Of a stretch of DNA of 27,068 nt, positions 1,847 to 21,193 are shown in pieces (within the stretch, counting starts at the first letter, position 1; each line of letters opens with the position of its first letter). The stretch comes from a virus. A model generated the notes under the pieces. The model did no database searches. It was not told the origin of the DNA and saw only the letters and a program-made list of their open reading frames with translations. The position numbers were made by a program, and so were the translations under genes. The stretch spans positions 1-27,068 of the IMG/VR virus record IMGVR_UViG_3300042383_000617, one strand, 5' to 3'.

Positions 1847-3519
1847 AAAAGCATCCGAAGATAGAGCTGCCTGACCCGCCCAAGACGGCTGGTCCTGAAG
1901 TCTCTCAGCACGCCCTCCAGCAGATGCGGGAGGTGCAGGCCGAGCTTGCATCTCGCCGCCTGGAGTCGTTGCGGCTCTATCGCCCCATGCCTCATCAGGA
2001 AGAGTTCCACAAGTGCATGGCGAGCGAACGGATCGTGCTGGGTGGTAACCGAGGTGGTAAGTCTCTGGCTGTGGCCGTGGAGGCGGCTCGCGCTGTGACG
2101 GGCCAAGACCCCTACGGCAAGTATCCAGAGAAGGACGGCAACCTCGCCATCGTCGGCCGCAACTGGCCCCACATCGGGCTTGTCATCTATCCGATCCTCT
2201 TCAAAGCCGGGGCGTTCCGAATCATCCGCGATGAAGAGACGGGAGAGTGGCGCTCCATGCGCAAGGGGGACGACAAGTCTAAAAGCAAACCAGCCCCGCC
2301 ATTAATCCCGCCACGGCTCATCAAAGACATGAGCTGGGTGCTGAAGAACGCCGGCTATCTCAACAAAGTCGAACTGACCAACGGCTGGAACATCTGGTGC
2401 TTCTCTTCTGAAGGCGAGCCTCCGCAGGGCTATCAGGCAGATTTTATTTGGCTGGACGAGGACCTTAACAACGAGCGTTGGGTGGGGGAGTGCCAAGCCC
2501 GACTGGCGGATCGCAAAGGCCGCTTTGTGTGGGCAGCCATGCCGCACTCCAAGAATGACGCGCTCATTGGGCTGTGCGAACGTGCCGACAAGGCGATTGA
2601 GAACGGCGAAGAGAATCCGATCATCCGCAAGTTCACGTTCAGGTTTTTAGATAACGACTTCATTGATGACGAGGAAAAGCGAAAGAACATTGAGCGGTGG
2701 AGCGCGCTTGGCCAAGAAGAATTGAAGATGCGTGCCGAGGGTGAGTTCACCACCGAATCCACCCTCATGTACCCGACGTTCAACCAGTCGGTCCACATTC
2801 TCCCCCGGTCAGAACTGCCGGCCGGTCTGGTGCCTCCCGACTGGACCCGCTACGTGGCCATCGATCCAGGCCATGCGGTGATGGCGTGTGTCTTCGGTGC
2901 TGTACCCCCAGACGAGAAGTTCTTGCTCATCTACGACGAACTGTATATCAGGCAGTGCAACAGCCTGATCTTTGGCGAGCGCTTCTGGGAGAAGGCCCAG
3001 GACCAGCATTTCTACAACTTCATCATGGACATGCACGGAGGCATGCTGCGTGACCTGGGGTCCGGCCGACTGCCCCATGAGTTGTATTCGGAGGAGTTGA
3101 AGAAGCGGAACTGCCGCTCCCAGATATCCGGCTTCGGGTTCATGCCGGGGTCTGACGACATCCCGGCCCGCACAGCGATGGTCCGTCAGATGCTGCACAT
3201 CCGTGGCGACGGGACGACGAAACTCAAAATCCTGGAAGGCTCCTGCCCCAACCTTCTTAGGGAACTGAGGCGCTACCGAAAAAAGACGACCACCGTCAAC
3301 GGGCAGGTCTACGTGACCGATGAGCCGCAGACCCGCGGAGAGGTCCACGCCTGTCAATCCTTGGAATACCTCTGTGCCTACGAGCCCAAGTACCACGCCC
3401 CGCCGAAGACCTATGGTCCCGAGCCGTGGTGGGTGAAGTACCTGTCTGAGAAGAAACGCCGCCAGCGGGAGTCCGAAGACCCCGCTTTGTATCTAGCCCC
3501 GAAAGGATTTGGAAAATGA
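1843..3519 (+). CDS. terL: terminase large subunit (packaging ATPase/nuclease)
   Basis: A 558-aa motor protein that pumps DNA into the prohead through the portal and cuts the concatemer. The N-terminal ATPase shows an adenine-binding-like segment (YRPMPHQEEF, about 46-55), a Walker A GGNRGGKS at 67-74 and a Walker B strand FIWLDED with D205-E206. The C-terminal RNase H-like nuclease shows the first acidic strand YVAIDPGH (D341) and a second, MDMHG (D396). The usual third site, DHAxDALxYL in relatives, reads GEVHACQSLEYL (about 499-510), so an Asp is replaced and E500 is the only nearby acid before the helix. Length is normal for the family. ATGA overlaps join it to the genes on both sides. 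Assignment is confident; whether the nuclease is fully active is open. Confidence 0.95.
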   Translation: MKKHPKIELPDPPKTAGPEVSQHALQQMREVQAELASRRLESLRLYRPMPHQEEFHKCMASERIVLGGNRGGKSLAVAVEAARAVTGQDPYGKYPEKDGNLAIVGRNWPHIGLVIYPILFKAGAFRIIRDEETGEWRSMRKGDDKSKSKPAPPLIPPRLIKDMSWVLKNAGYLNKVELTNGWNIWCFSSEGEPPQGYQADFIWLDEDLNNERWVGECQARLADRKGRFVWAAMPHSKNDALIGLCERADKAIENGEENPIIRKFTFRFLDNDFIDDEEKRKNIERWSALGQEELKMRAEGEFTTESTLMYPTFNQSVHILPRSELPAGLVPPDWTRYVAIDPGHAVMACVFGAVPPDEKFLLIYDELYIRQCNSLIFGERFWEKAQDQHFYNFIMDMHGGMLRDLGSGRLPHELYSEELKKRNCRSQISGFGFMPGSDDIPARTAMVRQMLHIRGDGTTKLKILEGSCPNLLRELRRYRKKTTTVNGQVYVTDEPQTRGEVHACQSLEYLCAYEPKYHAPPKTYGPEPWWVKYLSEKKRRQRESEDPALYLAPKGFGK

Positions 3520-3833
3520 CCGACTTTGCTATGCCGAAGGCTGACCTGGGTGACTTTGTTCAGTACTACCGCCATGAAGGTGCCGAGCCCAACGTGGGCA
3601 TCGTGACCGCTGTCTCGTCCCGCACGCTCACGCTCTGGGTCATCGCCCCGGGCTACGGTGGCGTGGAGCGTCCAAGCGTCCATCACGTCACCGATCCAGG
3701 GGTGGCGGAGTTCCCGGCCTGGAAGGAATACGGCTTCTGGGACCTGCGCAAAGGCAAGGATGCGATTCTCTCGGAAAAGGTGGCCTTGCTGGAGAAGAAG
3801 CTGGCTGACCTGGAGGGGAAAAAGGCCCGCTAG
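3516..3833 (+). CDS. small terminase-portal linker protein, function unknown
   Basis: A 105-aa protein whose ATG overlaps the terminase stop (ATGA). The first 70 residues look beta-rich, with GDFVQYYRHEG and GIVTAVSSRTLTLWVIAP, resembling a small SH3-like barrel. The last 25 residues form a charged helix with heptad-like leucines (SEKVALLEKKLADLEGKK), a likely short coiled coil that could oligomerise it. Small proteins with this layout sit between terminase and portal in a number of phages, but I cannot name a characterised member. A role in packaging or head completion is inferred only from position. Confidence 0.7.
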   Translation: MTDFAMPKADLGDFVQYYRHEGAEPNVGIVTAVSSRTLTLWVIAPGYGGVERPSVHHVTDPGVAEFPAWKEYGFWDLRKGKDAILSEKVALLEKKLADLEGKKAR

Positions 3834-3858
3834 GACACTGATCCATAGGAGAACCTAG

Positions 3859-5850
3859 ATGGCCGACGAGAATCCCCTGCGCCCAATAGTGGCCACTTGG
3901 CTGAAGAAGATCGAACTAGCCAAGAAGCACAAGAAGCCCTTTGCCGATGATGCGGCCGAGGCTCTTGGCTTCTATGACAGCGATCCTGACACCATGTGGA
4001 AGGACTCCACCGCGCGTGGGGACAAGGGCTACAACAAGGGGATCGATGCCCCGCCGATCCGGTTGTGCATCAACCGCGTCTGGGAGGCCGTGCGTCTGTT
4101 TGCGTCGGTGATCCATCACCGTAACCCGCAGCGTACGGTCAGCCCGAAGGAGTACCCCATCGTCGGCCCGGCTCTCCTGGGCATCTTCCCGCAGCAGCCG
4201 GTTCCCCAGATGGGCCCCGATGGTCCCGTGATGGGGCCTGACGGCCAGCCGGTGATGATGCCGGACCCCGGGATGCAGATGTACGAGCAGGGCCTTCAGC
4301 AGCAGCAGATGATGTGGGAGCGCCGCAAGGTGATCGCCCAGTTGTTGGAAGGATATTTGAACTACACCCCCAACGAACTGAACCTCAAAGGCCACTCCCG
4401 CAAGGTGGTGGAAGAGGCGTTCATTAAGGGTGCTGGTGTCTGGTGGCACGAACTCTACTCGCCTTCTGGGTCGCAGGTGAAGTTCGCCGGGTCGTTCTTT
4501 GACTCCATCGACAACATCGTCTGGGACCCGGATGCCGATGAGTTTGAAGACATCCGCTGGGCCGCCCGCAAGCGGACGCAGCCCATCGATGAGGTGGCAG
4601 CGAAGTTCGGCCTGTCTCGCGACGACCTGAAGGGGCACATCGAATCCTACGCCTCCCGCACGGAGGAAGGTGAGCGTGGCTACGAAACCAAGCGCAAGAA
4701 CGGCAAGACGAACGACCTCATCTGCTACTGGGAGATTTACTCCAAGACCGGCTTTGGAGATCGCCTGAAGGACGCCGACAAGGACCTGCAAGGAAAGTTT
4801 GATTCGTTAGGCCAGAACTGTTACATCGTCGTCGCAGAGGGCGTGGAGTTCCCATTGAACCTCCCCCCTGCCCTGCTTCAGGAAGAGGCCGGCGAGAACG
4901 GGGTGCCGCAGAACTTCTTCATGGCTGCCCAGTGGCCGATCCCCTTCTGGGCTGAACCAAACGGCTGGCCCTTCACGCTCCTGGCGTGGCACGGCAAGCC
5001 GGGCTACTCATGGCCGATCTCCTTGATCCGCCCTGGTATTTCGGAGTTGCGGTTCATCAACTGGGCGATGTCGTTCCTCGCCACCCGGATCGCCACGTCC
5101 TCGCAGACGCTGATCGGTGTTGCCAAGGCGGCTGACCCAGACCTGAAGGCCAAGATTCTGGAGAAGTCGGAGAAGGGATTCAACATCGTTGAAATCTCGG
5201 AGGCGGTGGGCAGATCGGTCAGCGACGTGATCTCGGTGTTCCAGACTCCTGGCGTGACCCAGGACATGTACCAGATCATCAGCGAGGTCACCGCCCTCTT
5301 CGACCGCCGCGTGGGGCTTACTGAACTTTTGTATGGTATGACCCGGAACCAGTTCCGGTCAGCTGCAGAAGCCCAGGTGAAGGCCGAGCAAATCTCGGTC
5401 AGGCCCGACGACTATGCAAATATTCTGGAAGACGCTCTCTCGGAGGTCGCTCGCAAGGAAGCCCTCCTCGCCCGGTGGTTGATCTATCCGCAGGACGTGG
5501 AACCGCTCTTGGGACCGATGGCCGCGCAGGCGTGGGGCATGCACGTCCAGGGCGAGAATCCCGACGCGATTGTCCGCGAGTACTCCTACCGCGTCGAAGC
5601 CGGGTCGGCTCGTAAACCGAATCTCGCGACGAAGACGGAGAACCTCAACAACTTCCTGCAGGTGGCCATGCCTGTGGCGCAGGGTCTTCTCCAGGCCGGT
5701 CAGCCCGATCTGTTCAATAGCCTGATGACGGCCTGGGGTCAGGTGAACCAGTTCGACGTGTCGTCGTACCTCGTTCCACCACCGCCTCCTCCGCCCCCTG
5801 GTCCTCCGCCCGGTGAGCCGCCCCCCGCTCCGCCTCCCCAAGGACAATAG
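3859..5850 (+). CDS. portal protein
   Basis: A 663-aa protein that should form the dodecameric ring at the unique head vertex, through which DNA enters and leaves. A strong Shine-Dalgarno AGGAGA (3847-3852) lies six bases before the ATG. Portal-like features are the early helix with RLCINRVWEAVRLFA, the wing region FFDSIDNIVWDPDADEFED followed by ARKRTQ, and a late helical stem/crown region around GMTRNQFRSAAEAQVKAEQ. A Pro/Met/Gln-rich loop (about residues 110-150) is inserted before the wing. The C-terminus (640-663) is nearly all proline and glycine, probably disordered. It directly follows the terminase genes, as expected. The portal assignment rests on position, length and these segments and is fairly firm. 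Confidence 0.87.
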   Translation: MADENPLRPIVATWLKKIELAKKHKKPFADDAAEALGFYDSDPDTMWKDSTARGDKGYNKGIDAPPIRLCINRVWEAVRLFASVIHHRNPQRTVSPKEYPIVGPALLGIFPQQPVPQMGPDGPVMGPDGQPVMMPDPGMQMYEQGLQQQQMMWERRKVIAQLLEGYLNYTPNELNLKGHSRKVVEEAFIKGAGVWWHELYSPSGSQVKFAGSFFDSIDNIVWDPDADEFEDIRWAARKRTQPIDEVAAKFGLSRDDLKGHIESYASRTEEGERGYETKRKNGKTNDLICYWEIYSKTGFGDRLKDADKDLQGKFDSLGQNCYIVVAEGVEFPLNLPPALLQEEAGENGVPQNFFMAAQWPIPFWAEPNGWPFTLLAWHGKPGYSWPISLIRPGISELRFINWAMSFLATRIATSSQTLIGVAKAADPDLKAKILEKSEKGFNIVEISEAVGRSVSDVISVFQTPGVTQDMYQIISEVTALFDRRVGLTELLYGMTRNQFRSAAEAQVKAEQISVRPDDYANILEDALSEVARKEALLARWLIYPQDVEPLLGPMAAQAWGMHVQGENPDAIVREYSYRVEAGSARKPNLATKTENLNNFLQVAMPVAQGLLQAGQPDLFNSLMTAWGQVNQFDVSSYLVPPPPPPPPGPPPGEPPPAPPPQGQ

Positions 5851-6710: not shown

Positions 6711-6838
6711 CCAGCAGCATCACGCTTGCTCCCCGCAAGAAGCCACAGCCGGTGGTGCGGGTGGTGTACACGCTCAAAGCCGCTAACGGCAATTTCCTGA
6801 TCACTAAGGACGCCAAGAACATCACGGTGAAGTACTAA
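6707..6838 (+). CDS. 43-aa basic microprotein
   Basis: A short gene that starts at an ATG overlapping the previous stop (ATGA, 6707-6710) and ends in a TAA that overlaps the next start (TAATG, 6836-6840). The product begins MTSSITLAPRKKPQPVVRVV and ends NFLITKDAKNITVKY; it is basic and likely forms two or three beta strands. Coupling on both sides, identical to that of undoubted neighbours, is the main evidence that it is translated. Function is unknown. Confidence 0.58.
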   Translation: MTSSITLAPRKKPQPVVRVVYTLKAANGNFLITKDAKNITVKY

Positions 6839-7653
6839 TGCCAGACACATTCATCTCCCAGCTTCCGCTCTCCTCCGCTGCCGCTGATGCGGTTGTGGCC
6901 GCCGACAGCGGTGACGGCACCGTGACGAACAAGGTCACGCTGGCTTCTATCGCTGCGCTTGGCGGCGGGGCCCCTGCTACCCATGCGGCGACTCACGGTT
7001 CGGCCGGCACTGATCCCATTACGCCCGCAGCGATTGGGGCGGTGGCAACCAATGACGCCCGGCTCACTAATGCCCGCGCCCCTACTGGTCATGCCAGTTC
7101 GCACGGGTCTGCAGGAACCGATCCCATCACCCCGGCGGCCATCGGCGCTGCACTGGCCAGCCATCAGCACACCCTGAGTGCAGTCACCGATGCCGGGACC
7201 GCAGCCTCGCGTAACGTGCCGGCGGTGGGCAACGCCTCTTCTACGGAGGTGGTCTTGGGCTCGGACGGTCGGCTCATCGACAGCCGGGTGCCGACGAGCC
7301 ACGCCACGTCGCACCGCAGCACGGGGGCCGATGCGATTACTCCCGTAGTCCTCACTCCATCGCTGACGAGCAGCCAGAACGACTGGTCCCCCGGCGTGGC
7401 GGATGTGATCTACATCACGGCGAGCGGAGCGTTGAACATCACTGGCCTTGCGGCCAGTGCGGTGGATGGGTTCTGTGTTCTCCTGGTCAACGTGAGTGCG
7501 TCGGCCAACATCACGCTGGCCCATGAGTCCAACTCCAGCACGGCGGCCAATCGCTTCCGCTCTGCATACGGGGCGAACTATGTCCTGTATGCAGACGGCG
7601 GGTCAGCCACGCTGGTGTATCACGCCGCGTCGTCTCGCTGGAGAATCCTGTGA
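6838..7653 (+). CDS. tail fibre protein with His-x3-His/ITP repeats
   Basis: A 271-aa fibre-type protein. The N-terminus (DTFISQLPLSSAAADAVVAA) resembles the short N-terminal modules that begin many phage fibres and may dock it to the tail. Residues 49-169 carry three copies of a HAxxHxSxGxDxITP repeat (His pairs at 49/53, 85/89 and about 155/159), with the common fibre linker NDARLTNARAPTGH between the first two. Such spaced histidines can bind metal along a trimer axis in known fibres. The C-terminal 100 residues look beta-rich (VIYITASGALNITGL, then NYVLYADGGSATLVY) and could be a cap or receptor-binding head. It is coupled to the LamG-like gene by a GTGA overlap, suggesting the two products work together. 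Confidence 0.8.
   Translation: MPDTFISQLPLSSAAADAVVAADSGDGTVTNKVTLASIAALGGGAPATHAATHGSAGTDPITPAAIGAVATNDARLTNARAPTGHASSHGSAGTDPITPAAIGAALASHQHTLSAVTDAGTAASRNVPAVGNASSTEVVLGSDGRLIDSRVPTSHATSHRSTGADAITPVVLTPSLTSSQNDWSPGVADVIYITASGALNITGLAASAVDGFCVLLVNVSASANITLAHESNSSTAANRFRSAYGANYVLYADGGSATLVYHAASSRWRIL
6982..7344 (+). repeat. three HAxxHxSxGxDxITP coding repeats
   Basis: Repeat units begin at about 6982, 7090 and 7300 within the fibre gene. The first two are nearly identical in protein (HGSAGTDPITPAAIGA in both) but differ at many third codon positions, so the repeat is kept by selection on protein rather than being a recent DNA duplication. The third is more diverged (HRSTGADAITP). Confidence 0.8.
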
Positions 7654-8186
7654 TCCCTCGCCGGTCGTTCGACCCACGCTCCATTGGCGGGCTAGTGCTG
7701 TGGCTGGACGACTCCCAGACGGCTAGGGAGTGGTCTGCCAAGTTCGGCTCATCGGCGGTGCAGACGGCGACGAACAACCAGCCGACCGTCTCGTCTATTG
7801 GGACTCGCCCGGCCCTGTCGTTCGACGGCATCAACGACACGCTGTCGCTCCCGGTCACGACTCTCTCAACGTGGCATGCGTTCGCTGTAGTGAATCCGGC
7901 TACTTCAACCACCCAGACGGTGATCCATCTGGCATCCTCCGGGACGCAGTCGTTCACCCTCTCATCGTCGGCCGCGGGGCTGGCGGTGATCTCCGCTTCC
8001 GGCAACCCATCCACGTCGGCGGCGTTCTATGGGGTTGATGGAAGAATCGGTGCCGGCTGGTCCGGTGGCTCGCTGAAGAACTTCTACAAGGGACTGATCG
8101 GTGAGGTGCTGGTCTACGACGCCACTCTAAGCAGTCCGCAGGCGACGGCGATCACCCGTTATCTCTCTGCGAAATGGGGCCTGTAA
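7650..8186 (+). CDS. LamG/concanavalin-like lectin-type protein, copy A
   Basis: A 178-aa protein with a GTG start that overlaps the previous stop (GTGA). It matches the compact LamG/concanavalin A-like pattern common in phage adhesins: FDPRSIGGLVLWLD at the start, a central PALSFDGIND strand, and the closing strands KGLIGEVLVYDATLS followed by a helix ending SAKWGL. These beta sandwiches usually bind glycans. It is shorter than its relative at 10541-11338 because the WTDLSGNA segment after the first strand is missing. Its stop overlaps the start of the Gly-rich fibre (TAATG). Likely a receptor-binding or fibre-tip subunit; the ligand is unknown. Confidence 0.8.
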   Translation: MIPRRSFDPRSIGGLVLWLDDSQTAREWSAKFGSSAVQTATNNQPTVSSIGTRPALSFDGINDTLSLPVTTLSTWHAFAVVNPATSTTQTVIHLASSGTQSFTLSSSAAGLAVISASGNPSTSAAFYGVDGRIGAGWSGGSLKNFYKGLIGEVLVYDATLSSPQATAITRYLSAKWGL

Positions 8187-9748
8187 TGCAGCGCTATTAC
8201 ATTACCGCAGAAGCCACGTACGAAGCCCTCCGGCAGTCGCTGAACGTCCAGCTGGGCTATCCCACCGGCACGGCTAAGTCCATCTTCCAGACCGCCCTCC
8301 AGGCTCCCCGGGACGGATTCCGACGAGTCCTCCTCGCCGTCGATACCGACCTCCCCCAGTACACCGCCATCCTCGCCGCCATCACGCCTCTCATTGAGGC
8401 GGATGCCATGGAGGAGATTGACGAGGCAACGTACGTAGCGGCCGTGAACAGTGCCGCATCTGGCGGAGGGGCTAGCACCTGGAGCGAGCTGACCGGCACG
8501 CCCACCACGCTGGCGGGGTATGGGATCACTGATGCAGCTACTCAACATCATACGCATAGCGCAAGTCAGGTCACGGACTTCGCCAGTGCCGTCGCCGCCG
8601 CTGCCCCTGCGGAGGTGCTGGATTTCCAGACTACGGCCCAGTTTCCCGCGACCGGCCTCGCGTCGAAAATCTACGTCGCCACCGACGCCTCGCGGGCCTA
8701 CCAGTGGACGGGATCGCAGTACGCCGAGATCGGCCCTGCGGGGGCGTTCCTGCCGGTTCATAGCCATGCGGCCAGTGACATTACGAGCGGGGTGGTTTCG
8801 GCGGCTCGGCTCGGCACCGGCACGGCGAACAGCACGACGTTCCTGCGTGGCGACTCGGCCTACGCTCCGGTCAGCGAGGTCTACGAGTTCACGCGAACGA
8901 GCAGGCCAGCGGACGCGACAGGAAGCAACGGTTCCTATTCGTGGACGATCCCCGCAAACGCAAGGCTTGTTGAGTTCTTTGCTGTTGGGGCTGGCGGTGG
9001 TGGCGGGTCTGGCCGTCGCGGTGCTGCTGGGTCGGCCCGGTTTGGTGGCGGCGGTGGGGCTGGCGGTGGCACACTGCTGTTTACGCGAAGCCTGGCAGAG
9101 TTGGTTTCGCGGAGTGTCTCCATAACTGTTGGCGCTGGCGGGGCTGGCGGCGCGGCAGTCACAGCGAATGACACGAACGGAAACGCCGGATCAAACGGCT
9201 CTGATAGTGCGATTCAACTCGGCTCCTCCCATATCCTGTATGGCGGTAGGGGTAACGGTGGCGGTGGCGGGACGGCATCGGCGGCTGCTGGCGGAACGGT
9301 CGGAAACTCTCTGTACGCCGGTTCTGCCGGAGCCGCTTCTTCTGCCACAACAACGCCAAGCGGCGGCGCAAATCAGCTTGGCCTTGGAGCCGCTGGCGGC
9401 GGTGCCGGTGGCGGCATATCAACTGCCGACGCATCTTTCGCTGGATCTATCGCGCGGGCTCAGGGGTGGTTCGTGAGCGGCAATCTCGCCAACGCGAGCG
9501 GCGGCACAACTCCGGGCGGTGCCGGTCAAAATGCCGATGCAGCATTTTCTAACCCTTTCACTGCGGCCCCTGGTGGCGGCGGCGGTGGTGGTGGTAGCGG
9601 CAATTCAACAACCGCAGGCGGCAGCGGTGGAAGCGGCGGCACCTATGGTGGTGGCGGTGGCGGTGGCGGCGCGTCGTTCAACGGTTTCAATTCCGGCGCA
9701 GGCGGCAACGGTGGCGATGGTTATGTCCGAATTACGGTCTGGTACTAA
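8186..9748 (+). CDS. tail fibre with RYY N-terminal domain and glycine-rich C-terminal adhesin domain
   Basis: I chose the ATG at 8186, which forms TAATG with the previous stop, rather than the in-frame ATG at 8174, because the paralogue at 11335 also starts right before its RYF motif. This gives 520 aa. Residues 1-90 are a small domain (QRYYITAEATYEALR, then APRDGFRRVLLAV, ending EEIDEATY) that occurs alone in the gene at 11335. Next comes a fibre shaft with ELTGTPTTLAGYGITDAA and paired histidines (HHTHSASQ, HSHAASDI). The last 270 residues are a glycine-rich domain with GAGGGGGSGR, GAGGAGGAA and many more runs, ending in DGYVRITVWY. Similar poly-Gly domains, as in gp38-type adhesins of T-even relatives, pack as polyglycine-II sandwiches and bind receptors with the loops between runs. 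A host-binding role is likely. Confidence 0.83.
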   Translation: MQRYYITAEATYEALRQSLNVQLGYPTGTAKSIFQTALQAPRDGFRRVLLAVDTDLPQYTAILAAITPLIEADAMEEIDEATYVAAVNSAASGGGASTWSELTGTPTTLAGYGITDAATQHHTHSASQVTDFASAVAAAAPAEVLDFQTTAQFPATGLASKIYVATDASRAYQWTGSQYAEIGPAGAFLPVHSHAASDITSGVVSAARLGTGTANSTTFLRGDSAYAPVSEVYEFTRTSRPADATGSNGSYSWTIPANARLVEFFAVGAGGGGGSGRRGAAGSARFGGGGGAGGGTLLFTRSLAELVSRSVSITVGAGGAGGAAVTANDTNGNAGSNGSDSAIQLGSSHILYGGRGNGGGGGTASAAAGGTVGNSLYAGSAGAASSATTTPSGGANQLGLGAAGGGAGGGISTADASFAGSIARAQGWFVSGNLANASGGTTPGGAGQNADAAFSNPFTAAPGGGGGGGGSGNSTTAGGSGGSGGTYGGGGGGGGASFNGFNSGAGGNGGDGYVRITVWY

Positions 9749-9750
9749 CG

Positions 9751-10077
9751 ATGCAATCTCTCGCGATCCTCAACGCTGACGGCCTCGTAGTGACGTTCGT
9801 GCGGCCCGACGTTCCCGAAGGCTGGACGCCCCCCGAAGGATGCACGGCAGTCCCCGAAGCGGAGTTGCCCGCAGGCTGGGTGCGCGAGCCAGAGCGTCAC
9901 GATATGGCCGACGTTCGCAAGGAGCGTAACGCGAGACTGACGGCGAGCGATTGGACACAGGTGGCCGACGCGCCAGTCAATCAGCAAGCATGGGCCACCT
10001 ACCGACAGGCGCTCCGCGATCTGCCGAGCGTCTACTCAGGCGAAGGGCCGATCCCGTGGCCGCAGGAGCCAGCCTAA
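9751..10077 (+). CDS. tail assembly chaperone-like protein (Phage_tail_APC type)
   Basis: A 108-aa protein two bases after the Gly-rich fibre. Its C-terminal half is a classic tail-assembly-chaperone signature: RNARLTASDWTQVADAPV, then AWATYRQALRDLP, then a closing PIPWPQEP. Members of this family are encoded beside tail fibres, and some help fibre folding or attach to the fibre base. The N-terminal half is a small domain with AILNADGLVVTFVRPD followed by a Pro-rich segment. It most likely serves the Gly-rich fibre upstream or the short fibre downstream. It ends in a TAATG overlap. Confidence 0.82.
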   Translation: MQSLAILNADGLVVTFVRPDVPEGWTPPEGCTAVPEAELPAGWVREPERHDMADVRKERNARLTASDWTQVADAPVNQQAWATYRQALRDLPSVYSGEGPIPWPQEPA

Positions 10078-10541
10078 TGCCATTCTCGTTTCCCTCCTCA
10101 CCGACCGTAGGCGACCAATCCACGCAGAACGGGCGCGTCTATTCGTGGACGGGATCGGCGTGGGAAATCGTGCCGATCCCGACGGGCGTGGATGCGGGGA
10201 ATCTCACCGGCACCGTCGCCCTCGCCCGCCTCCCCATCGTCTTGGAGCAGACGCAAACGGTGGGCAACAGCGGCACCTCTACGACGCTGGCCCTGACCAC
10301 CGGCAGCGTCCAGACCGTGACGCTCTCGGGCAACTGCACATTCACGATGCCATCACCGACCGCTGGGGCGTCGATCACGTTGATCCTCACGCAGGGCGGG
10401 ACGTTCACGGCGACGTTTACCGGCGTCCTGTGGGCGGGCGGCACCGCGCCCACGATCACGGCGACGAGCAACAAGCGGGACATTCTCGTCTTCGTCTCGG
10501 ACGGCACGAACTGGTTTGGCACGGCCTCGCAGAATCACTAA
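10077..10541 (+). CDS. short tail fibre-type protein
   Basis: A 154-aa protein starting at the ATG of a TAATG overlap; a longer in-frame reading upstream lies inside the previous gene and is rejected. The N-terminus FPSSPTVGDQSTQNGRVYSW with TGSAWE is a widespread phage fibre module in which a Trp-rich strand pair follows a Gly/Asn turn. The middle has NLTGTVALARLP, a typical shaft-to-head linker. The C-terminal 90 residues are Thr-rich and beta-type (QTVTLSGNCTFTMPSP, ITLILTQGG, DILVFVSDGTNWF). It is probably a virion-attached beta-structured fibre or cap. No enzymatic motif is seen. Confidence 0.78.
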   Translation: MPFSFPSSPTVGDQSTQNGRVYSWTGSAWEIVPIPTGVDAGNLTGTVALARLPIVLEQTQTVGNSGTSTTLALTTGSVQTVTLSGNCTFTMPSPTAGASITLILTQGGTFTATFTGVLWAGGTAPTITATSNKRDILVFVSDGTNWFGTASQNH

Positions 10542-11338
10542 TGCTTGCAGGCAAGATCGGCTACTTCCGGCAGGCTTTCGACCCGCGAAGCATCGCAAAT
10601 CTGGCGCTATGGCTGGACGCTTCCGCCACGGGCGGTTTTACGTCTACCAGCGGGCAGGTCACGCAGTGGACGGACCTCAGCGGAAACGCCCGCCACTTCA
10701 CGCAAACGACGGCGAACAACAGGCCGACGCTATTTACCAGTGCCAGCGATGCCCAGACGACGACGCCCGCAACGATTGGCGGCAAGCAGGCTTTTTTCTT
10801 TGACGGCGTGAACGACAGGCTAGCTGGGAACGTGGCTGCCAGGAATATCGGTCGCAACGTCGGCGGCGTGTCGTTGTTTGCCGTGGTGCAACTCACCTCC
10901 GCAGCGGCAAGCGAGCGTTTCGTTTACGCCGCCCTGACGCCGCAAAGCAACTACCGGCACGGACTGCTGTTCAACACCGGCCTAACGATTTTTCGATTGC
11001 TCGGCCAGCGATTAGACGCCGACTCGGCTGTGACGCGATCGTCTGCAAGCGGCTTTTTTTCTACCGGCCCGATATATGTCATATCGGCATTGTGGAACAA
11101 CACGGCGGCAACGTCGCTTGCGATGCTCAACGGAACGACCGTCATCGCCAGCGGCGCGCACGGTACTGCCGGGTCTACGAGCGACACGGCAGCGAGCCAA
11201 GTAAATATCGGCTTCACCGGGTTCGGTGGCTTTTGGGCTGGGCTGATCGGGTCGGTTCTGATTTACGACCGCGCGCTGAGCGATGCGGAACGTGCCACCG
11301 TCCGGTCGGGGCTGGCCGCGCAATGGGGGGCATCGTGA
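10541..11338 (+). CDS. LamG/concanavalin-like lectin-type protein, copy B
   Basis: A 265-aa protein coupled by TAATG. It is a full-length relative of the 7650-8186 gene: FDPRSIANLALWLDAS, VTQWTDLSGNARHF, ANNRPT, AFFFDGVNDRL, FAVVQL and the closing GLIGSVLIYDRALSDAE followed by a helix ending AAQWGAS. The WTDLSGN segment, missing in copy A, is present. This pattern is typical of LamG-like beta sandwiches that bind sugars on cell surfaces. Its stop overlaps a GTG start (GTGA) of a small gene that is homologous to the start of the Gly-rich fibre, so the lectin plus RYY-domain pair occurs twice in this window. A receptor-binding role is inferred. Confidence 0.82.
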   Translation: MLAGKIGYFRQAFDPRSIANLALWLDASATGGFTSTSGQVTQWTDLSGNARHFTQTTANNRPTLFTSASDAQTTTPATIGGKQAFFFDGVNDRLAGNVAARNIGRNVGGVSLFAVVQLTSAAASERFVYAALTPQSNYRHGLLFNTGLTIFRLLGQRLDADSAVTRSSASGFFSTGPIYVISALWNNTAATSLAMLNGTTVIASGAHGTAGSTSDTAASQVNIGFTGFGGFWAGLIGSVLIYDRALSDAERATVRSGLAAQWGAS

Positions 11339-11595
11339 ACCGATATTTTCGTATCGCTTCTAGCGAACAATACGAGGCTATGCGGCTGATGCTTGACGCA
11401 GCCTGGGGGCATGAGCCGCCGACAACCTGCGTCGATCCAGCGGAGTCAGCTCCCCGCGATGCGGAGGGGCGAATCCTTCTGGCCGTGCGGCCGGAGTTCT
11501 TGGCGTTCGATGCGGTGGCCGCGATGCTGCCGCAGTTGCTCGCCAGCGGCGTCGTGGAAGAAATCAACGAGTCGCAATACCTGCCGGTGGGCTGA
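11335..11595 (+). CDS. stand-alone RYF-domain protein, paralogue of the fibre N-terminus
   Basis: An 86-aa protein with a GTG start in a GTGA overlap. It aligns with residues 1-90 of the Gly-rich fibre: RYF against RYY, YEAM against YEAL, APRDAEGRILLAV against APRDGFRRVLLAV, and EEINESQY against EEIDEATY. It ends where the fibre shaft would begin, so it is either a truncated duplicate that lost its shaft or a deliberate free-standing copy, for example a competing or capping subunit at the fibre attachment site. It closes the run of coupled genes before a noncoding gap. Confidence 0.72.
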   Translation: MNRYFRIASSEQYEAMRLMLDAAWGHEPPTTCVDPAESAPRDAEGRILLAVRPEFLAFDAVAAMLPQLLASGVVEEINESQYLPVG

Positions 11596-11621
11596 GTTGC
11601 CGTCTTCCCACAACATACGGC

Positions 11622-11646
11622 AACGATCCGGAATCTCCGGATAGTT
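11622..11646. promoter_or_regulatory. imperfect palindrome in the gap before the methyltransferase
   Basis: ATCCGG (11626-11631) and CCGGAT (11637-11642) form a perfect 6-bp inverted repeat around a 5-base loop; beyond one G/A mismatch, AAC and GTT extend the pairing. No T-run follows, so a simple intrinsic terminator is not supported. It could be an operator or an RNA hairpin ending the fibre operon. The rest of the 130-base gap (11596-11725) holds only a weak promoter-like pair, TTGCCA (11692-11697) and TAGGCT (11714-11719), 16 bases apart. Confidence 0.35.
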
Positions 11647-11725
11647 CGGCGCGACCGTATACACCTTAGAGAGAGTCGGTCAGAAAACGTATTGCCAGAT
11701 TTGGCTATGCGCGTAGGCTCGGGGA

Positions 11726-12418
11726 ATGCGAGTTCTTGATCTGTTCTGCGGCGCGGGGATGGCTGCCGATGGCTACGCCCAGGCGGGCTTTGAGCCGACC
11801 GGCGTGGACATCTTCCTGCGGGCGAGCTACCCGTACCGTTTCGTATGGGCGCACGCTCTTGCGATCCTTGGGGATCGGGCCTTCGTCTCGCAGTTCGATC
11901 TGATCCACGCCTCGCCGCCGTGTCAGGCCCATACGCGGGCCAAGCACCTACGGACTGCCCAGGGCGGCACCAGCAGGCACGGCGACCTGCTGACGCCTAC
12001 GCTGGCCCTCCTGCGGACCTACGACATTCCCTGGGTCGTGGAGAACGTCGTGGGGGCTCCGGGCATGGATGGGGCTGCGATTGAGTGCGGCTCGGCCTAC
12101 GGTCTGAAGGTGCGACGGCACCGGCTTTTCCTCGCTTCGTTCCCGCTCGTCGGCTCTGGCTGCAAGCACCAGGAGCAGGGCAAGCCGGTGGGCGTCTATC
12201 ACGTTATGGGCGACACCTGTAAGGGCGTCTGCAAGAAGACCGGCAAGCTCGTCATCGGCGGATCGACGGCCAAGACGGTGGAGGAAGGCCGCGAGGCAAT
12301 GGGCGTCGAACGGGATATGTCGTGGGAAGAACTAAAGGAAGGATTCCCGCCCGCCTATACCAAGCACGTTGGCGAGCAGGCCATGCGGTACATCTTGGAG
12401 ACGCGAGCGGCTGCGTAG
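11726..12418 (+). CDS. solo C5 cytosine DNA methyltransferase
   Basis: A 230-aa enzyme that should transfer a methyl group from S-adenosylmethionine to cytosine C5. Motif I is LDLFCGAG (4-11), motif II GVDI (26-29), motif IV SPPCQ with catalytic C66, motif VI ENVV (E106), and a motif VIII-like RRHRLF (130-135). The C-terminus (LKEGFPPAYTKHVGEQA) fits motifs IX-X. It is shorter than typical C5 enzymes (over 300 aa), so the target-recognition part, roughly residues 136-200 with a DTCKGVCKKTG cluster, is small; this compact form is common in phages. No restriction enzyme is nearby. Shielding phage DNA from host restriction is the most likely job. The start has GGGGA touching the ATG with no spacer, an odd ribosome site. 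It sits alone between noncoding gaps inside the fibre region, like a moron gene. Confidence 0.88.
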   Translation: MRVLDLFCGAGMAADGYAQAGFEPTGVDIFLRASYPYRFVWAHALAILGDRAFVSQFDLIHASPPCQAHTRAKHLRTAQGGTSRHGDLLTPTLALLRTYDIPWVVENVVGAPGMDGAAIECGSAYGLKVRRHRLFLASFPLVGSGCKHQEQGKPVGVYHVMGDTCKGVCKKTGKLVIGGSTAKTVEEGREAMGVERDMSWEELKEGFPPAYTKHVGEQAMRYILETRAAA

Positions 12419-12419
12419 T

Positions 12420-12442
12420 GCGCTCTTGCACCAGAAGAGCGC
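12420..12442 (+). terminator. hairpin directly after the methyltransferase stop
   Basis: GCGCTCTT (12420-12427) and AAGAGCGC (12435-12442) form a perfect 8-bp stem with a 7-base loop, starting two bases after the TAG stop. Position and stem strength suit a transcription terminator or an mRNA-stabilising end, but no T-tract follows, so factor-independent termination is uncertain. Confidence 0.45.
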
Positions 12443-12448
12443 CCGACA

Positions 12449-12525
12449 CGTATCAAAAACGATACGCTTCACGAACGATCTCCGATACAATCGGGGCGTT
12501 CGCGATTCGGGAAACCCGAAACGCC
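12449..12525 (+). promoter_or_regulatory. hairpin cluster with an embedded -10-like box
   Basis: Three further perfect inverted repeats follow within 77 bases: CGTATC/GATACG (12449-12454, 12461-12466, loop AAAAAC); CCGAT/ATCGG (12482-12486, 12490-12494, loop ACA); and a two-part stem with TTCGGG/CCCGAA (12506-12511, 12515-12520, loop AAA) inside GGCGT/ACGCC (12495-12499, 12521-12525). TACAAT at 12486-12491 is a five-of-six match to a -10 box; the hexamer 17 bases upstream, TACGCT, is a poor -35. If used, the promoter would start a structured leader of about 80 bases for the 72-aa gene. Confidence 0.35.
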
Positions 12526-12554
12526 ACACCCGACCGGCACGCTACACCGAGCGA

Positions 12555-12577
12555 GGGTATATACCCAAATTGGTATA
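12555..12577. promoter_or_regulatory. operator-like palindrome before the 72-aa gene
   Basis: GGGTATATACCC (12555-12566) is a perfect 12-bp palindrome. A third half-site, GGTATA (12572-12577), follows so that TATACC (12560-12565) and GGTATA form a second inverted repeat around six bases. The last half-site touches the AAGGA Shine-Dalgarno-like sequence (12577-12581). The symmetry looks like a repressor binding site, possibly for autoregulation; the binding protein is unknown. Confidence 0.4.
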
Positions 12578-12581
12578 AGGA

Positions 12582-12800
12582 ATGGCACACGCGATCCTGA
12601 AGTTCGACCTGAGCGACACGGACGACGCCCGCGAGCATCGGTACGCTCTGGCAGGCCGCGAGGCGTTGATAGCGCTGGAGTTGATCGACAACCGCTGCCG
12701 GGCGATCTGTAAGCATGGCGAGCCGAGCGAGGAGACGGCGAAGATTCTGGAAGAAATACGGCAGTTGATTCCCTACGAATTGACGAGCCTGCTGGTGTAG
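12582..12800 (+). CDS. 72-aa phage protein of unknown function
   Basis: A small, mostly helical protein. It begins with a strand, AILKFDLSDTDDAREHRYAL, followed by helices with REALIALELIDNRCRAICKH and then SEETAKILEEIRQLIPYEL. Small proteins starting with a KFxL strand followed by a His/Ala helix and a paired C-terminal helix are common in phages, often near replication or early genes, but their function is not established. AAGGA abuts the ATG with no spacer, as with the methyltransferase, so initiation may be weak or leader-dependent. Only this gene and the methyltransferase lie outside the coupled operon, which suggests separate expression, perhaps early in infection. Confidence 0.72.
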   Translation: MAHAILKFDLSDTDDAREHRYALAGREALIALELIDNRCRAICKHGEPSEETAKILEEIRQLIPYELTSLLV

Positions 12801-12828
12801 TGCGCTAGCGAGCGAAGGGACGGCAATT

Positions 12829-12853
12829 CCCGCCCGTTTCCCCTTTCCCCCCC
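12829..12853 (-). other. G-quadruplex motif on the minus strand
   Basis: On the + strand there are four C-runs: CCC (12829-12831), CCC (12833-12835), CCCC (12840-12843) and C7 (12847-12853), separated by 1, 4 and 3 bases. The minus strand therefore fits the standard G3+N1-7 quadruplex pattern, and the plus strand could form an i-motif. It lies 28-52 bases before the fibre start codon in an 80-base gap, on the template strand for transcription. Confidence 0.5.
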
Positions 12854-12863
12854 GCCGGACAAT

Positions 12864-12877
12864 GACTCTTAGGAGTC
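12864..12877 (+). promoter_or_regulatory. Shine-Dalgarno sequence within a small hairpin
   Basis: GACTC (12864-12868) and GAGTC (12873-12877) pair around a TTAG loop. The Shine-Dalgarno AGGAG (12871-12875) that serves the ATG at 12881 lies across the loop and 3' arm, so folding would hide part of it. With a 5-bp stem the effect would be modest. Confidence 0.35.
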
Positions 12878-12880
12878 TCC

Positions 12881-15349
12881 ATGTCCAAAAACCGGGGTAA
12901 TTCCCAGCGTATCCAGCACCGCCGTGGCTCGGCTGCGGAGTGGACTGTCAATAATCCCATCCTCTTTGCCGGGGAGCTTGGGTATGAGACGGATACCACT
13001 CGGATCAAAGTGGGGGATGGCGTCACCCAATGGGTCAATCTGGCCTACGTGGGCCAATTTGGGGCCAACGACCTGGATGGCCTGACAGACGTGTCGATCA
13101 CCAGCCCCGCCTCTGGGGCCGTCCTGCGGTACGACGGGGCCTCTTGGACTGACTACGTCCTCTCTAAGTCCGATGTCGGCCTGTCCAACGTCGATAACAC
13201 CTCAGACGCCAATAAGCCCGTCTCCACAGCCCAGGCTGCCGCAGACGCTGCCGTAGCCTCCGCCGCCTCGTCCGACGCGACCAGCAAGGCCAATGCCGCC
13301 CAGGCCGCCGCCATTCAAAGGGCTAACCACACTGGCACCCAGCCGGCCAGCACTATTACCGGGTTGGCCGCCGTCGCGACATCGGGATCGTACAACGACC
13401 TGTCCAACAAACCCAACGTCATCTCACAGGCCGATGCCGATGCCCGCTATGTGAACATCACGGGCGACACGATGACGGGTGCGCTGACCGCAACGGCGGT
13501 GACAGCATCATCTTCTGGACTTTATTCGGTCGATGGCACGACGAACTGCCGCATTATTGCGGCCGCTGGAATTTCATACTTCGGGGCCACCAGTAACAAC
13601 TCCGTGCATTTGCAGGCCAACAACCAATCTCATGTTGTGATCCTGCCATCGGGCAACGTCGGCATAGGGACTGCGAGCCCCGGCGCAAAGTTGCACGTTG
13701 CCGGATCGGGCCAAGGCATCTTCATCGAAGACACAGGCGCAAACCGTGCTGTACTGGGACTGTATGCGTTCAATAACGAACTGCGGATTCAGGGAACGGC
13801 ATACGTCAATGCCGCGCAGCCGCTGACCGTGTGGACAGCCAACGCCGAGCGTATGCGCATCGACGCCAACGGCAACGTCGGCATCGGAACAACTAGCCCA
13901 AGCGCGAGGCTGGATGTTCGCACCAACACCGCCAACGACGGCATCCTTCTGGCAAGCAGCACTTCCAATTTGCAGATTCGCGCACTGAACGGCCAAGGCG
14001 CAAATAACGGCATCGTTCAGGCCAACGACTCTGGAATCATCTATACCGGAGGCACGGTCAATACGGGCGCATTCGTCATCGCACCGTGGAACAACGCAAC
14101 GTGCGGCCTTCGCATGGACGCCAACGGCAACGTCGGCATCGGGACTGCGAGTCCGACAACGAGGCTGGACGTTGCGGCTGTCAGCACAATCGCGAGCGGG
14201 ACTTGGGCTGGCGGCACTGACTTCGTAAGGCTGCTGGCCGCTTCCGGCAGTGCGTTTAGCGAGCAGGCGATTGCCTTCCAAGAAGCCGGTACTAATGTCG
14301 GCGCGAAGATCGGCGTCAAGAATCAGGGCAACGGCGCATATGACATTGTTTTCGCCAACAGAGACAACTCGTCTTTGACCTCTGCGTTTGCGGAACGCGC
14401 TCGCATTGCCGCTACGGGCAACGTCGGCATCGGGACTACGAGCCCCAACCAGCGACTCCATGTCAGTGGTGGTCAATTCTGGAACACAACCTCCGATTTC
14501 GTTCTCGGTTCAACAGGAACGATTATCGGCACCGGACACGGCGCTGCGACAGGGAACACCTACGGGTTCATCGCGGCAACCAATGTCGGTGGGACAGCGT
14601 GGAGCAATCTCGTCTTGCAGTCTGGCGGTGGCAACGTCGGCATCGGGACTGCGAGTCCCGACCAGAGGTTGGCCGTAAGCGGAAACATATCATGCTCCGG
14701 CATCCTCTATGCCAGCACCGGCATCCAGACCTCTGGCGCGCGTGCCCTGTTCAGGGCTAATGGCGAACAATACGGCGTGGGCGTTGCGGCTTCAGCGGCC
14801 GGTGGGTTTGTCTATTTCGGTGCCAACAACGGCACTGCCACTCCCGATGCCGTTATCAGTGCAGCAGGCGGCAACACGCTGATGACCCTGCAAAACGGCG
14901 GCAACGTCGGCATCGGGACAACGAGCCCCACAAGAACGCTTCATGTCAACTCAGCGGGCTTCTTTGCTGCTCGCATTCAGTCTTCCGACACAATTGCCTG
15001 CGTCCTAGAGATTTCCGCCCCCGGAAGGACTTGGGAGTTGGCCGTCAACGGAACGACAGGCACCACTGGGGTTGCTGGAACGTTCTACATCTGGCAGCAA
15101 GGTGCTGGCGGCGGGCCACGGTTTGCCATCGACCCCACAGGCAACGTCGGCATAGGGACTGCGAGCCCTACGATCTCCAGCGGCGTCGGCCTTCATCTCT
15201 CCGGCTCCACTCTCCGACTCGGTACAGCCCGCACCCCGGCCAGTTCGACGGCCACTGGCAACCAAGGGGAAGTCTGCTGGGACTCTTCGTATCTGTATGT
15301 GTGCATTGCAACGAACACTTGGCGCCGCATCGCCCTAACCACTTGGTGA
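12881..15349 (+). CDS. long tail fibre with Mtd-like N-terminus and GNVGIGT repeats
   Basis: An 822-aa fibre. Residues 8-50 match the N-terminal domain of major-tropism-determinant-type proteins: RIQHRRGSAAEWTVNNP, then GELGYETDTTRIKVGDG. Then comes a SDVGLSNVDNTSDANKPVST linker and Ala-rich coiled segment, typical of trimeric fibres. From residue 258 to about 760 seven copies of GNVGIGTxSP, usually followed by xxxLxV, recur every 71-97 residues, each probably closing one beta-domain. The C-terminus (GEVCWDSSYLYVCIATNTW) is a common phage fibre ending. Proteins with GNVGIGT repeats often carry a self-cleaving S74 chaperone at the end; none is present here. The gene has its own strong Shine-Dalgarno. 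It is likely the main or side fibre for host attachment. Confidence 0.88.
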   Translation: MSKNRGNSQRIQHRRGSAAEWTVNNPILFAGELGYETDTTRIKVGDGVTQWVNLAYVGQFGANDLDGLTDVSITSPASGAVLRYDGASWTDYVLSKSDVGLSNVDNTSDANKPVSTAQAAADAAVASAASSDATSKANAAQAAAIQRANHTGTQPASTITGLAAVATSGSYNDLSNKPNVISQADADARYVNITGDTMTGALTATAVTASSSGLYSVDGTTNCRIIAAAGISYFGATSNNSVHLQANNQSHVVILPSGNVGIGTASPGAKLHVAGSGQGIFIEDTGANRAVLGLYAFNNELRIQGTAYVNAAQPLTVWTANAERMRIDANGNVGIGTTSPSARLDVRTNTANDGILLASSTSNLQIRALNGQGANNGIVQANDSGIIYTGGTVNTGAFVIAPWNNATCGLRMDANGNVGIGTASPTTRLDVAAVSTIASGTWAGGTDFVRLLAASGSAFSEQAIAFQEAGTNVGAKIGVKNQGNGAYDIVFANRDNSSLTSAFAERARIAATGNVGIGTTSPNQRLHVSGGQFWNTTSDFVLGSTGTIIGTGHGAATGNTYGFIAATNVGGTAWSNLVLQSGGGNVGIGTASPDQRLAVSGNISCSGILYASTGIQTSGARALFRANGEQYGVGVAASAAGGFVYFGANNGTATPDAVISAAGGNTLMTLQNGGNVGIGTTSPTRTLHVNSAGFFAARIQSSDTIACVLEISAPGRTWELAVNGTTGTTGVAGTFYIWQQGAGGGPRFAIDPTGNVGIGTASPTISSGVGLHLSGSTLRLGTARTPASSTATGNQGEVCWDSSYLYVCIATNTWRRIALTTW
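13652..15160 (+). repeat. seven identical 14-base repeats coding GNVGI
   Basis: GGCAACGTCGGCAT occurs at 13652, 13871, 14126, 14417, 14630, 14900 and 15140, each followed by MGG(G/A)AC. Spacings are 219, 255, 291, 213, 270 and 240 bases, all multiples of three. The DNA is identical even at third codon positions, although the sequence between the copies differs, which suggests recombination or gene conversion between copies. Confidence 0.9.
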
Positions 15350-19681: not shown

Positions 19682-21193
19682 ATGCTTACGCAGGCCATGC
19701 CGGCGCTGCAGAGGGCCCTTGCCGGCGCTCTGCCTGACGGTGCGATCAAAGCGCTGACGCAGGCGCTGGGCAACTGCAACATGCCGCTGATTCATCGCGG
19801 CCCAGTCACCATTGCACCGCCGACGTATCCCAACGACCAAGGAGTTGAGCGACCGGGCCGTTGGAACCCGGGGCAATACCCCGGCCTCATCCCGCCCATC
19901 GATGCCGTGGACGGCCCCCGCCCACCGGGAGACAGGCTTATCGAACTGCCTGGGTGGGGCAGCCCGTGGAACAGCGTCTATTACGGTGGACCCAACTTTT
20001 CCTTCCCGACGAACAACTACTTTAACACCAGCAGTTATTACGGCGGGCCCACGTACAACGTCGGCGGAGACAGTTACCACAACAACACTTACGTCAATAA
20101 CTATTACTCCACACAGCCGCCCGGAGGTCAGCCTCCCGCGGGGCCGCCACCGGCGCAACCGCCCAATGGCGGGCTGCCGCAGCTGAATGTGCGCGTTGTT
20201 GAGGTTCCGTTTTATGACGCCCGCTTCGCGCGAGTGCCCATACCCCAGAACGCTATCGGAGGAGGGACCGCCAAAGCCACGATCCCAACGAACGCCATTA
20301 AAGACATCAACACGAATGCGATTAGTGGCGGGACTGTGTCTGTGCCGGTCATCACGAATGCAATATCGGGCGGAACTGTATCCGTCCCCCAGGTCACGAA
20401 CGCCATTTCCGGCGGCTCAATCACTTACGACAAGACTACGTCCGTCACTGGTGGGACGGTGTCGTACGACAAGACAACGTCAATCACAGGCGGAACAGTT
20501 TCGTACGACAAGGCGACGGCCGTCAGCGGCGGGACGGTCTCGTACGACAAGGCGACTGGCATAACTTTCCCGGCCGCGGGCATACCGATCACCTTCCCGA
20601 CCCCTGCCGGTACGGTGGCTGTAACCCTCACCTTCCAGTCCGTTTCTGTTGTGACGGGAGTCTCGTCCACGTTCAACTCCTCCACCTGCTCCGTCACCAC
20701 CACTCCGACGTTCACATCCATCCAAGTGCCTTCGTCTGCGACCGCGACGTTCACTGGCACCGCACCCGCGAACGGTGCGTTATCGCTGTCCAGTGCCGGG
20801 CTGGCGCACACGGCCACCAGCGCATCGGTGGCTGGCCTATCGCTAACGCACACGTCCACGAGCGCCTCCGTTGCGGGGCTTGCTCCCTCGCACACGGCCA
20901 CCGGCGCGGACGTGACCGGACTGACGCCAAATTCGACGGCCACCAGCGCGAGCCTCAGCGGCACGCCCGCAGACATCAGCTCAACCTCCGTCGCCGTCTC
21001 CGGAACCCCGGCTACGAAGAACGACGAGTCGCGGACCCTCTCCGGAACCAAAGCCATCAATACCCCCGTTGCTGCCGACCAGTCCGAGCAGACCCTTCAG
21101 ATTTCTGGCACCCCCGCCACGACCGTCCAGACCCTTGTCTGCACGGGAATTGGGGAGGTCGGGGCCGTCCAGTATCCGGTCTTTGGGCCATAG
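19682..21193 (+). CDS. repeat-rich virion protein with 13-14-residue beta repeats
   Basis: A 503-aa protein directly after the nozzle. Residues 1-30 are helical (MPALQRALAGALPDGAIKAL). Residues 100-160 are rich in Tyr, Asn and Gly (SVYYGGPNFSFPTNNYF) and then Pro. From residue 211, three TNAISGG units of 14 residues and three of 13 residues (TSVTGGTVSYDKT type) follow in tandem; from residue 372 a second array of 12-14-residue units (AGLSLTHTSTSASV type) continues. The strong periodicity of short Gly/Thr/Ser/Val repeats suggests a beta-solenoid-like or stacked-hairpin rod. There is no catalytic motif. It is likely a tail-associated spike or appendage, inferred from neighbours. I cannot name a family. 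Confidence 0.75.
   Translation: MLTQAMPALQRALAGALPDGAIKALTQALGNCNMPLIHRGPVTIAPPTYPNDQGVERPGRWNPGQYPGLIPPIDAVDGPRPPGDRLIELPGWGSPWNSVYYGGPNFSFPTNNYFNTSSYYGGPTYNVGGDSYHNNTYVNNYYSTQPPGGQPPAGPPPAQPPNGGLPQLNVRVVEVPFYDARFARVPIPQNAIGGGTAKATIPTNAIKDINTNAISGGTVSVPVITNAISGGTVSVPQVTNAISGGSITYDKTTSVTGGTVSYDKTTSITGGTVSYDKATAVSGGTVSYDKATGITFPAAGIPITFPTPAGTVAVTLTFQSVSVVTGVSSTFNSSTCSVTTTPTFTSIQVPSSATATFTGTAPANGALSLSSAGLAHTATSASVAGLSLTHTSTSASVAGLAPSHTATGADVTGLTPNSTATSASLSGTPADISSTSVAVSGTPATKNDESRTLSGTKAINTPVAADQSEQTLQISGTPATTVQTLVCTGIGEVGAVQYPVFGP
20312..20554 (+). repeat. tandem 42/39-base repeats
   Basis: Units of 42 bases start at 20312, 20354 and 20396, followed by 39-base units at 20438, 20477 and 20516. 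They encode TNAISGGTVSVPVI, TNAISGGTVSVPQV, TNAISGGSITYDKT, TSVTGGTVSYDKT, TSITGGTVSYDKA and TAVSGGTVSYDKA. The third unit joins the start of the first type to the end of the second, so the two types are variants of one array. The change from 14 to 13 residues keeps the frame. Confidence 0.9.
20795..21040 (+). repeat. degenerate 14-residue repeat array
   Basis: One 12-residue unit then five of exactly 14 residues: AGLSLTHTSTSASV, AGLAPSHTATGADV, TGLTPNSTATSASL, SGTPADISSTSVAV and SGTPATKNDESRTL. Further SGTxA starts appear at 21041 and 21104. The common pattern is a (A/T/S)G turn followed by a Ser/Thr-rich strand. DNA identity between units is modest, so the array is older than the one at 20312. 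Confidence 0.82.

Follow-up and report, generated by a model that had tools for sequence, protein, structure and literature searches.

The locus and its genes

The virus record IMGVR_UViG_3300042383_000617 comes from an uncultured lake virus of bacteria, and the window analysed here, the whole stretch of 27,068 bp, carries a terminase gene (1843-3519) and a portal gene (3859-5850), followed by a tail/fibre block. Inside this block lie two ORFs, one of 230 aa (11726-12418) and one of 72 aa (12582-12800; hereafter p72), around which the gaps measure 130, 163 and 80 bp (Table 1). The first-pass annotation described these gaps as the only sizeable noncoding DNA of the window, placed between fibre genes, and both statements were borne out. 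The two ORFs and the three gaps exist, 12881-15349 has Mtd_N and PHROG tail-fibre matches, and 7650-11595 is tail/fibre-like. The sole other apparent gap, 6711-6837, was considered as a counter-example and rejected because it is occupied by a coupled ORF of 42 aa, itself with no Pfam match, and the claim therefore stands.

Two further features of the window were observed in passing. A pair of fibre genes, a lectin-like gene followed by a domain of about 86 aa, is seemingly duplicated (7650-8186 with 8174-8450, and approximately 10535-11338 with 11335-11595), and 19682-21193 encodes a protein with internal repeats of the NAISGGTVSVP and SYDKTTSITGGTV types.

Table 1. Features of the fibre-block locus, with window coordinates
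Feature	Position	Strand	Evidence or context
Resident left neighbour, 86 aa, the fibre-block gene just before the slot	11335-11595	+	100% identical in L033/L316, which lack the methyltransferase
Left composite linker	11596-11672	+	Hairpin with 8-bp stem (11596-11624), palindrome (11626-11642), then CACCTTAGAGA (11662-11672)
Apparent mobile methyltransferase cassette (promoter and gene)	11673-12418	+	About 20 bp in its place in L286; similarity to homologues lost at 12424-12429
Putative methyltransferase promoter	11692-11725	+	-35 TTGCCA (11692-11697), 16-nt spacer, -10 TAGGCT (11714-11719), 6 nt to ATG
Predicted compact C5 cytosine DNA methyltransferase, 230 aa	11726-12418	+	PF00145, PHROG 363, Foldseek, motifs
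Right linker (type B), directly after the methyltransferase stop	12419-12443	+	TGCGCTCTTGCACCAGAAGAGCGC
Operator-like inverted repeat upstream of p72	12449-12466	+	CGTATC-N6-GATACG
Putative -10 box of the p72 promoter	12486-12491	+	TACAAT; GATACAATCTGGGCG conserved in relatives
p72, resident small phage protein, 72 aa	12582-12800	+	52 distinct homologues in aligned set A1
Third linker, directly after the p72 stop, second slot boundary	12801-12823	+	TGCGCTAGCGAGCGAAGGGACGG
Resident right neighbour, tail-fibre gene with an Mtd_N domain	12881-15349	+	PF18454, 7.7e-18

The methyltransferase and its expression

The 230-aa protein matches a C5 cytosine DNA methyltransferase in profile, motifs and predicted fold. 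It scores 25.3 bits against the PF00145 profile (curated cut-off 22) and matches PHROG 363 at 4e-26, and its score with the NCBIfam dcm profile lies below the cut-off of that profile. The sequence displays DLFCGAG (motif I), PPCQ with the catalytic Cys66 (motif IV), ENV at residues 106-108 (motif VI), RRHR at residues 130-133 (motif VIII, R-x-R) and PPAYT (motif X), and the first four of these, including Cys66, are essentially invariant across 14 methyltransferase homologues. Foldseek aligned the model, which is uncertain at residues 67-82 and 158-164, with the catalytic domains of DNMT3B, DNMT3A and DNMT1 (E 3e-7 to 1e-6; TM 0.45-0.59), and the target-recognition region is short. Cultured relatives of the enzyme are the small methyltransferases of mycobacteriophages and of some other phages, at approximately 40% identity.

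Comparison with the nearest homologue, that of L002, gives 29 nucleotide changes, all of them in third positions and synonymous, with no non-synonymous change, and comparison with L003 gives 29 synonymous and one non-synonymous codon changes. Such strong purifying selection argues that the enzyme is in use. A homologue at 76% identity was also seen in L098 and L012 (contig 3300009160_000004), where it belongs to a different module on the opposite strand, well away from the fibre slot; the fibre slot of that contig is itself without it.

The putative promoter of the methyltransferase keeps its register in L002 and L004 and appears in a variant form in L014, and the register recurs before N6/N4, Dam, large C5 and PAPS-type cargos elsewhere. 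Its TAGGCT is a weak -10 element, and a strict sigma-70 scan of the region upstream of the methyltransferase in the window returned no promoter. The arrangement GGGGCATTTCAG..TGGAC..CGCGCGTANNNT, with 6 nt before the ATG, is common to other, unrelated modification genes, and a TANNNT box stands 5-8 nt before 17 of 49 cargo starts and 26 of 70 p72 starts, compared with 2 of 283 structural starts. The methyltransferases of L003 and L006 have a different promoter and an ordinary leader bearing a Shine-Dalgarno (SD)-like site. Judged from the common promoter layout, the unrelated modification genes that display it probably produce leaderless mRNA. The SD-like sequences that had been described as touching the start codons are indeed there, GGGGA-ATG and AAGGA-ATG both abutting their starts. 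At the methyltransferase, with transcription beginning at about the A of the ATG, this stretch would be only what separates the -10 box from the start codon, and it is better read so than as a ribosome-binding site.

Homologues of the large terminase subunit TerL at 80% identity include two contigs binned with a Pirellulaceae MAG, and the hosts of these phages are probably Planctomycetota, with Pirellulaceae as a tentative host; the host assignment derives from the binned MAG contigs. Planctomycetes are among the phyla that display signals of leaderless and/or S1-dependent starts (PMC5397173).

Slot boundaries and empty sites

The clearest empty site is found in L286, in which the left linker (95% identical, through CACCTTAGAGA at 11672) is followed by approximately 20 bp, TGCGCTCTTGCACCAG and the p72 promoter, so that what is missing is exactly the methyltransferase cassette. 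L343, L299 and L313 have a site of the same pattern, also without the methyltransferase, and the left-linker segment is 91-98.5% identical in L286, L343, L299, L297 and L313, where it stands beside other genes or an empty slot. L033/L316 are 100% identical to the window in DNA over 10500-11613 and then diverge inside the left linker; L033, with a TerL 100% identical to that of the window, lacks the methyltransferase and retains p72 (68% identity). On the right of the gene, similarity of six methyltransferase-bearing relatives to the window ends at 12424-12429, and that of p72-bearing relatives begins at 12439-12443, placing the switch of identity within about 20 bp, inside the type-B linker.

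From these alignments the mobile part appears to be smaller than first annotated, comprising approximately 11673-12418, the methyltransferase gene with its promoter. The earlier description of a moron-type cassette with its own expression holds for the methyltransferase, which is present or absent between fibre genes and has a putative promoter of its own, and fails for the two-gene island. Likewise, the proposed comparison of relatives did reveal genomes without the methyltransferase segment (L286, L343, L299, L313 and L033), with p72 forming no part of the mobile unit. The natural absence of the methyltransferase from relatives suggests that it is dispensable for lytic growth.

A second slot after p72 was observed at the third linker, where L286 carries about 700 extra bp (3216-3960) with an ORF containing a Recombinase domain (PF07508). 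Similarity to the next fibre gene is regained at 12782-13198. In L162 and L165 an HNH gene lies shortly downstream of p72.

Interchangeable cargo

Exact copies of the A linker CGCTCTTCACCTTAGAGA are present in 69 viral contig stretches, almost always within a fibre-type block, and between A and B linkers the empty slots of relatives measure 26-71 bp. The window-type C5 enzyme occupies this interval in L006 and L003. In L111 the slot contains a larger C5 enzyme (163 bits), in L131 a Dam-type enzyme (PF05869, below cut-off), in L129 a PAPS-reductase-domain gene and in L144 an ATPase-GNAT fusion (a 354-aa ORF on the reverse strand of the locus). The GNAT part of this fusion may resemble the DNA-modifying Mom protein. 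An N6/N4 methyltransferase lies at the corresponding place in L172 and L287. The cargo families above cut-off are PF00145, PF01555, PF01507 and GNAT (PF00583). Further contents are small HTH genes (L150, L160 and L106, with an HTH trio in L036 and others), small unknowns, and fibre-like genes (the L048 group); the cargos outside DNA modification, namely HTH, U95, U148 and fibre-like genes, count against reading the locus as a slot for modification genes.

These relatives show predicted DNA-modification genes of different chemistry recurring in one slot. The aligned loci also show how this slot appears to be built: it is bounded by linkers bearing GCGCT 0-4 nt after a stop codon, it contains nothing, a C5 methyltransferase or other genes, and p72 is resident. 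Taken together, we consider it quite probable that the fibre block of a family of uncultured freshwater phages, which probably infect planctomycetes, contains an accessory slot of an anti-restriction moron type that has been rebuilt by recombination at shared linkers.

Linkers and gene exchange

Across 104 non-redundant loci with 1,062 gene stops, the linker core GCGCT follows the stop codon at a distance of 0-4 nt in 96 cases. Similarity between loci breaks at 51-53% of these linker stops and at 18-19% of other stops nearby, whether 3' ends (49/96 linker stops and 71/400 other stops within 3 kb; Fisher p 2e-10) or 5' ends (51/96 and 74/400 within 3 kb; Fisher p 5e-11) are counted, although part of this excess arises because shared linkers end alignments even if the exchange occurred elsewhere between the genes. 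Read accordingly, the excess shows gene content changing at linkers, rather than proving crossovers within them. The 15-mer CGCTCTTGCACCAGA has many chance matches by itself and was used only together with its context.

Directly after their stop codons, two linkers of the window are predicted to fold into hairpins with perfect 8-bp stems (11596-11624, -11.4 kcal/mol, z -3.9; 12420-12442, -13.0, z -4.4), and for each of them 0 of 200 shuffles folded as well. Folding of the third gap gave no hairpin of this kind, and the scan of the window found no T-run after the hairpin at the methyltransferase stop. Across 82 distinct linkers the median z was -0.15, no better than shuffles. The linkers were therefore rejected as conserved RNA hairpins or terminators, given strong folding confined to the window and no T-run; since as a class they do not fold, what is conserved is the DNA sequence and not a structure. 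A sequencing-adapter origin, raised by the common GACGCTCTTC, was also rejected, as the element goes on differently and contigs from many samples contain it. The last approximately 16 bases of L047 (to 16784) are an adapter-like AGATCGGAAGAGCACA at the contig end, an assembly artefact.

Ordinary mosaicism is a possible, though rather unlikely, account of these patterns. Genes would be swapped by illegitimate recombination or over long homology, only junctions in gaps would survive selection, and the linkers would be regulatory or RNA-processing signals. The share of the junction excess that comes from common linkers ending alignments agrees with such a history. Breaks are, however, about three times as frequent at linker stops as at other stops within 3 kb, both linkers are retained at empty sites, and, in the fibre-block group, methyltransferase genes with quite different neighbours keep a TGCGCT-type start after their stop codon.

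Function and mechanism

An anti-restriction role of the methyltransferase, as originally proposed, is plausible. Under the slot reading the enzyme would be expressed as a leaderless mRNA made from a promoter of its own, uncoupled from the late transcription of structural genes, and its methylation of the phage genome would prevent cleavage by host restriction enzymes. By swapping cassettes the phage could in turn adapt the chemistry of its modification to shifting host defences. It is unlikely that the enzyme instead serves phage regulation or packaging, or labels the DNA of its host during lysogeny. Some orphan methyltransferases do have a part in gene regulation, and the tyrosine recombinase found in relatives makes a lysogenic state possible, but the swapping of chemically different modification enzymes is more in keeping with escape from diverse restriction systems than with a single fixed regulatory role.

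The longer contigs of the group, eight in number, suggest how an anti-restriction slot might be rebuilt. ERF, an annealing-type protein encoded by relatives of about 60 kb, was found in four of the eight and no RecT was found in the relatives. A serine recombinase (PF00239) is present in five of the eight, among them G005, whose TerL is 100% identical to that of the window, and a tyrosine recombinase domain in five, three of them over cut-off. The serine recombinase was seen at a resolvase-like size of 257-259 aa in L362, L363, L365 and L366 (G005, G001, G003 and G002, respectively), with an HTH gene nearby in some. Recombination at the common linkers may account for the gain, loss and swapping of cassettes, and ERF-type annealing at these short sequences would be the simplest mechanism of exchange.

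It is distinctly doubtful that the linkers are instead the sites of a dedicated site-specific system worked by a phage recombinase, such as this serine enzyme. The distribution of serine and tyrosine recombinases over these contigs and the direct-repeat-like linkers on both sides of single-gene cassettes would suit such a system, but linker sequence and pairing vary in a manner unlike strict recombinase sites, the recombinase gene does not adjoin the slot, and ERF annealing at short homology accounts for the same pattern.

The resident neighbour p72

The p72 protein is predicted to be mostly helical (AlphaFold pLDDT 91.6), with an N-terminal segment followed by helices at residues 13-45, 50-62 and 65-71. 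It had no match in Pfam, NCBIfam, PADLOC or the PDB and only weak matches in PHROG; BFVD returned only uncharacterised small phage proteins (E of about 0.02), and tblastn gave no match in cultured phages. In 24 of 88 p72 contexts the inverted repeat upstream of the gene precedes a GATACAATC-type box by about 20 bp, and one p72 subfamily keeps the repeat together with a TACAAT box. Repeat and box together form a probable regulated promoter.

Scans with p72 and with the terminase yielded 93 distinct p72 contexts at 35-97% identity, mostly without a window-type methyltransferase. For the 79 of these that have at least 1.2 kb of upstream sequence, a window-type methyltransferase is present in 5, the A-B slot is shorter than 80 bp in 18, and a modification-type gene lies within 3 kb upstream of p72 in 17. 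In 68 of 88 contexts the 400 bp upstream of p72 include a type-B linker (...GCACCAG...). The suggestion that methyltransferase and p72 are one functional unit, an enzyme with its partner or specificity factor, is highly improbable and was rejected by this census: the two genes are adjacent and co-directional in the window, L003, L004, L006 and L007, but only 5 of the 79 well-covered contexts have the methyltransferase and at least 18 have an empty slot, methyltransferases occur in L002 and L008-L022 with no p72 detected nearby, and p72 is a resident gene with its own conserved promoter-like region.

Comparison with known systems

The origin of phage mosaic junctions is an old question, mostly stuck because junction sequences have decayed, and this locus offers many recent, clean swaps with recurring junction sequences, on which homologous, annealing and illegitimate models become testable. 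That varied modification genes share one slot and one promoter type probably reflects an arms race with host restriction, in a phage family without a cultured close relative.

Phage morons are presented, in the part of PMC7067206 that draws on Juhala 2000 and Cumby 2012, as accessory loci with their own expression. The methyltransferase resembles them in being one gene inserted among structural genes, in its variable presence in near relatives and in a putative promoter of its own. It differs in occupying one slot with recurrent boundary linkers and interchangeable cargo, in a putative leaderless promoter common to unrelated cargos, and in showing no canonical T-run terminator. The small methyltransferases of mycobacteriophages (e.g. 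Gwendoluna gp89) are alike at about 40% identity over the full length, and differ in the phages that carry them, in their place in the genome and in expression context.

Mosaic junctions at short conserved boundary sequences are an idea cited in a passage of PMC3029335, and here too short common sequences stand at gene ends where similarity breaks; the present case differs in that they are visible at many junctions of one block, 0-4 nt from stops and with varied downstream halves. The SAS/ESAS of cluster K mycobacteriophages, near-identical 13-bp motifs at translation initiation sites (PMC3203893), are likewise repeated short intergenic motifs beside non-structural genes with larger gaps, whereas the slot linkers sit 0-4 nt after stop codons and vary, placing them outside the SAS definition.

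There is a slim chance that the locus is a true cassette-exchange system, in which the post-stop linkers would be dedicated recombination sites, worked by a phage serine recombinase or an annealing protein. Accessory genes would then be inserted one at a time at a set position, and many of these genes would encode DNA-modification enzymes expressed from a single kind of leaderless promoter. If true, this would be a phage counterpart of the integron for counter-defence. Integron cassettes likewise consist of one gene each, have a boundary element that follows the stop codon directly, and are exchanged in an array-like manner. They differ in that the slot linkers have no conserved folded attC-type site and in that the eight contigs gave tyrosine recombinase domain matches and no identified integron integrase. 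The accessory slot is known in outline, and what is new is the apparent combination of common linkers with a common, putatively leaderless promoter for unrelated modification genes.
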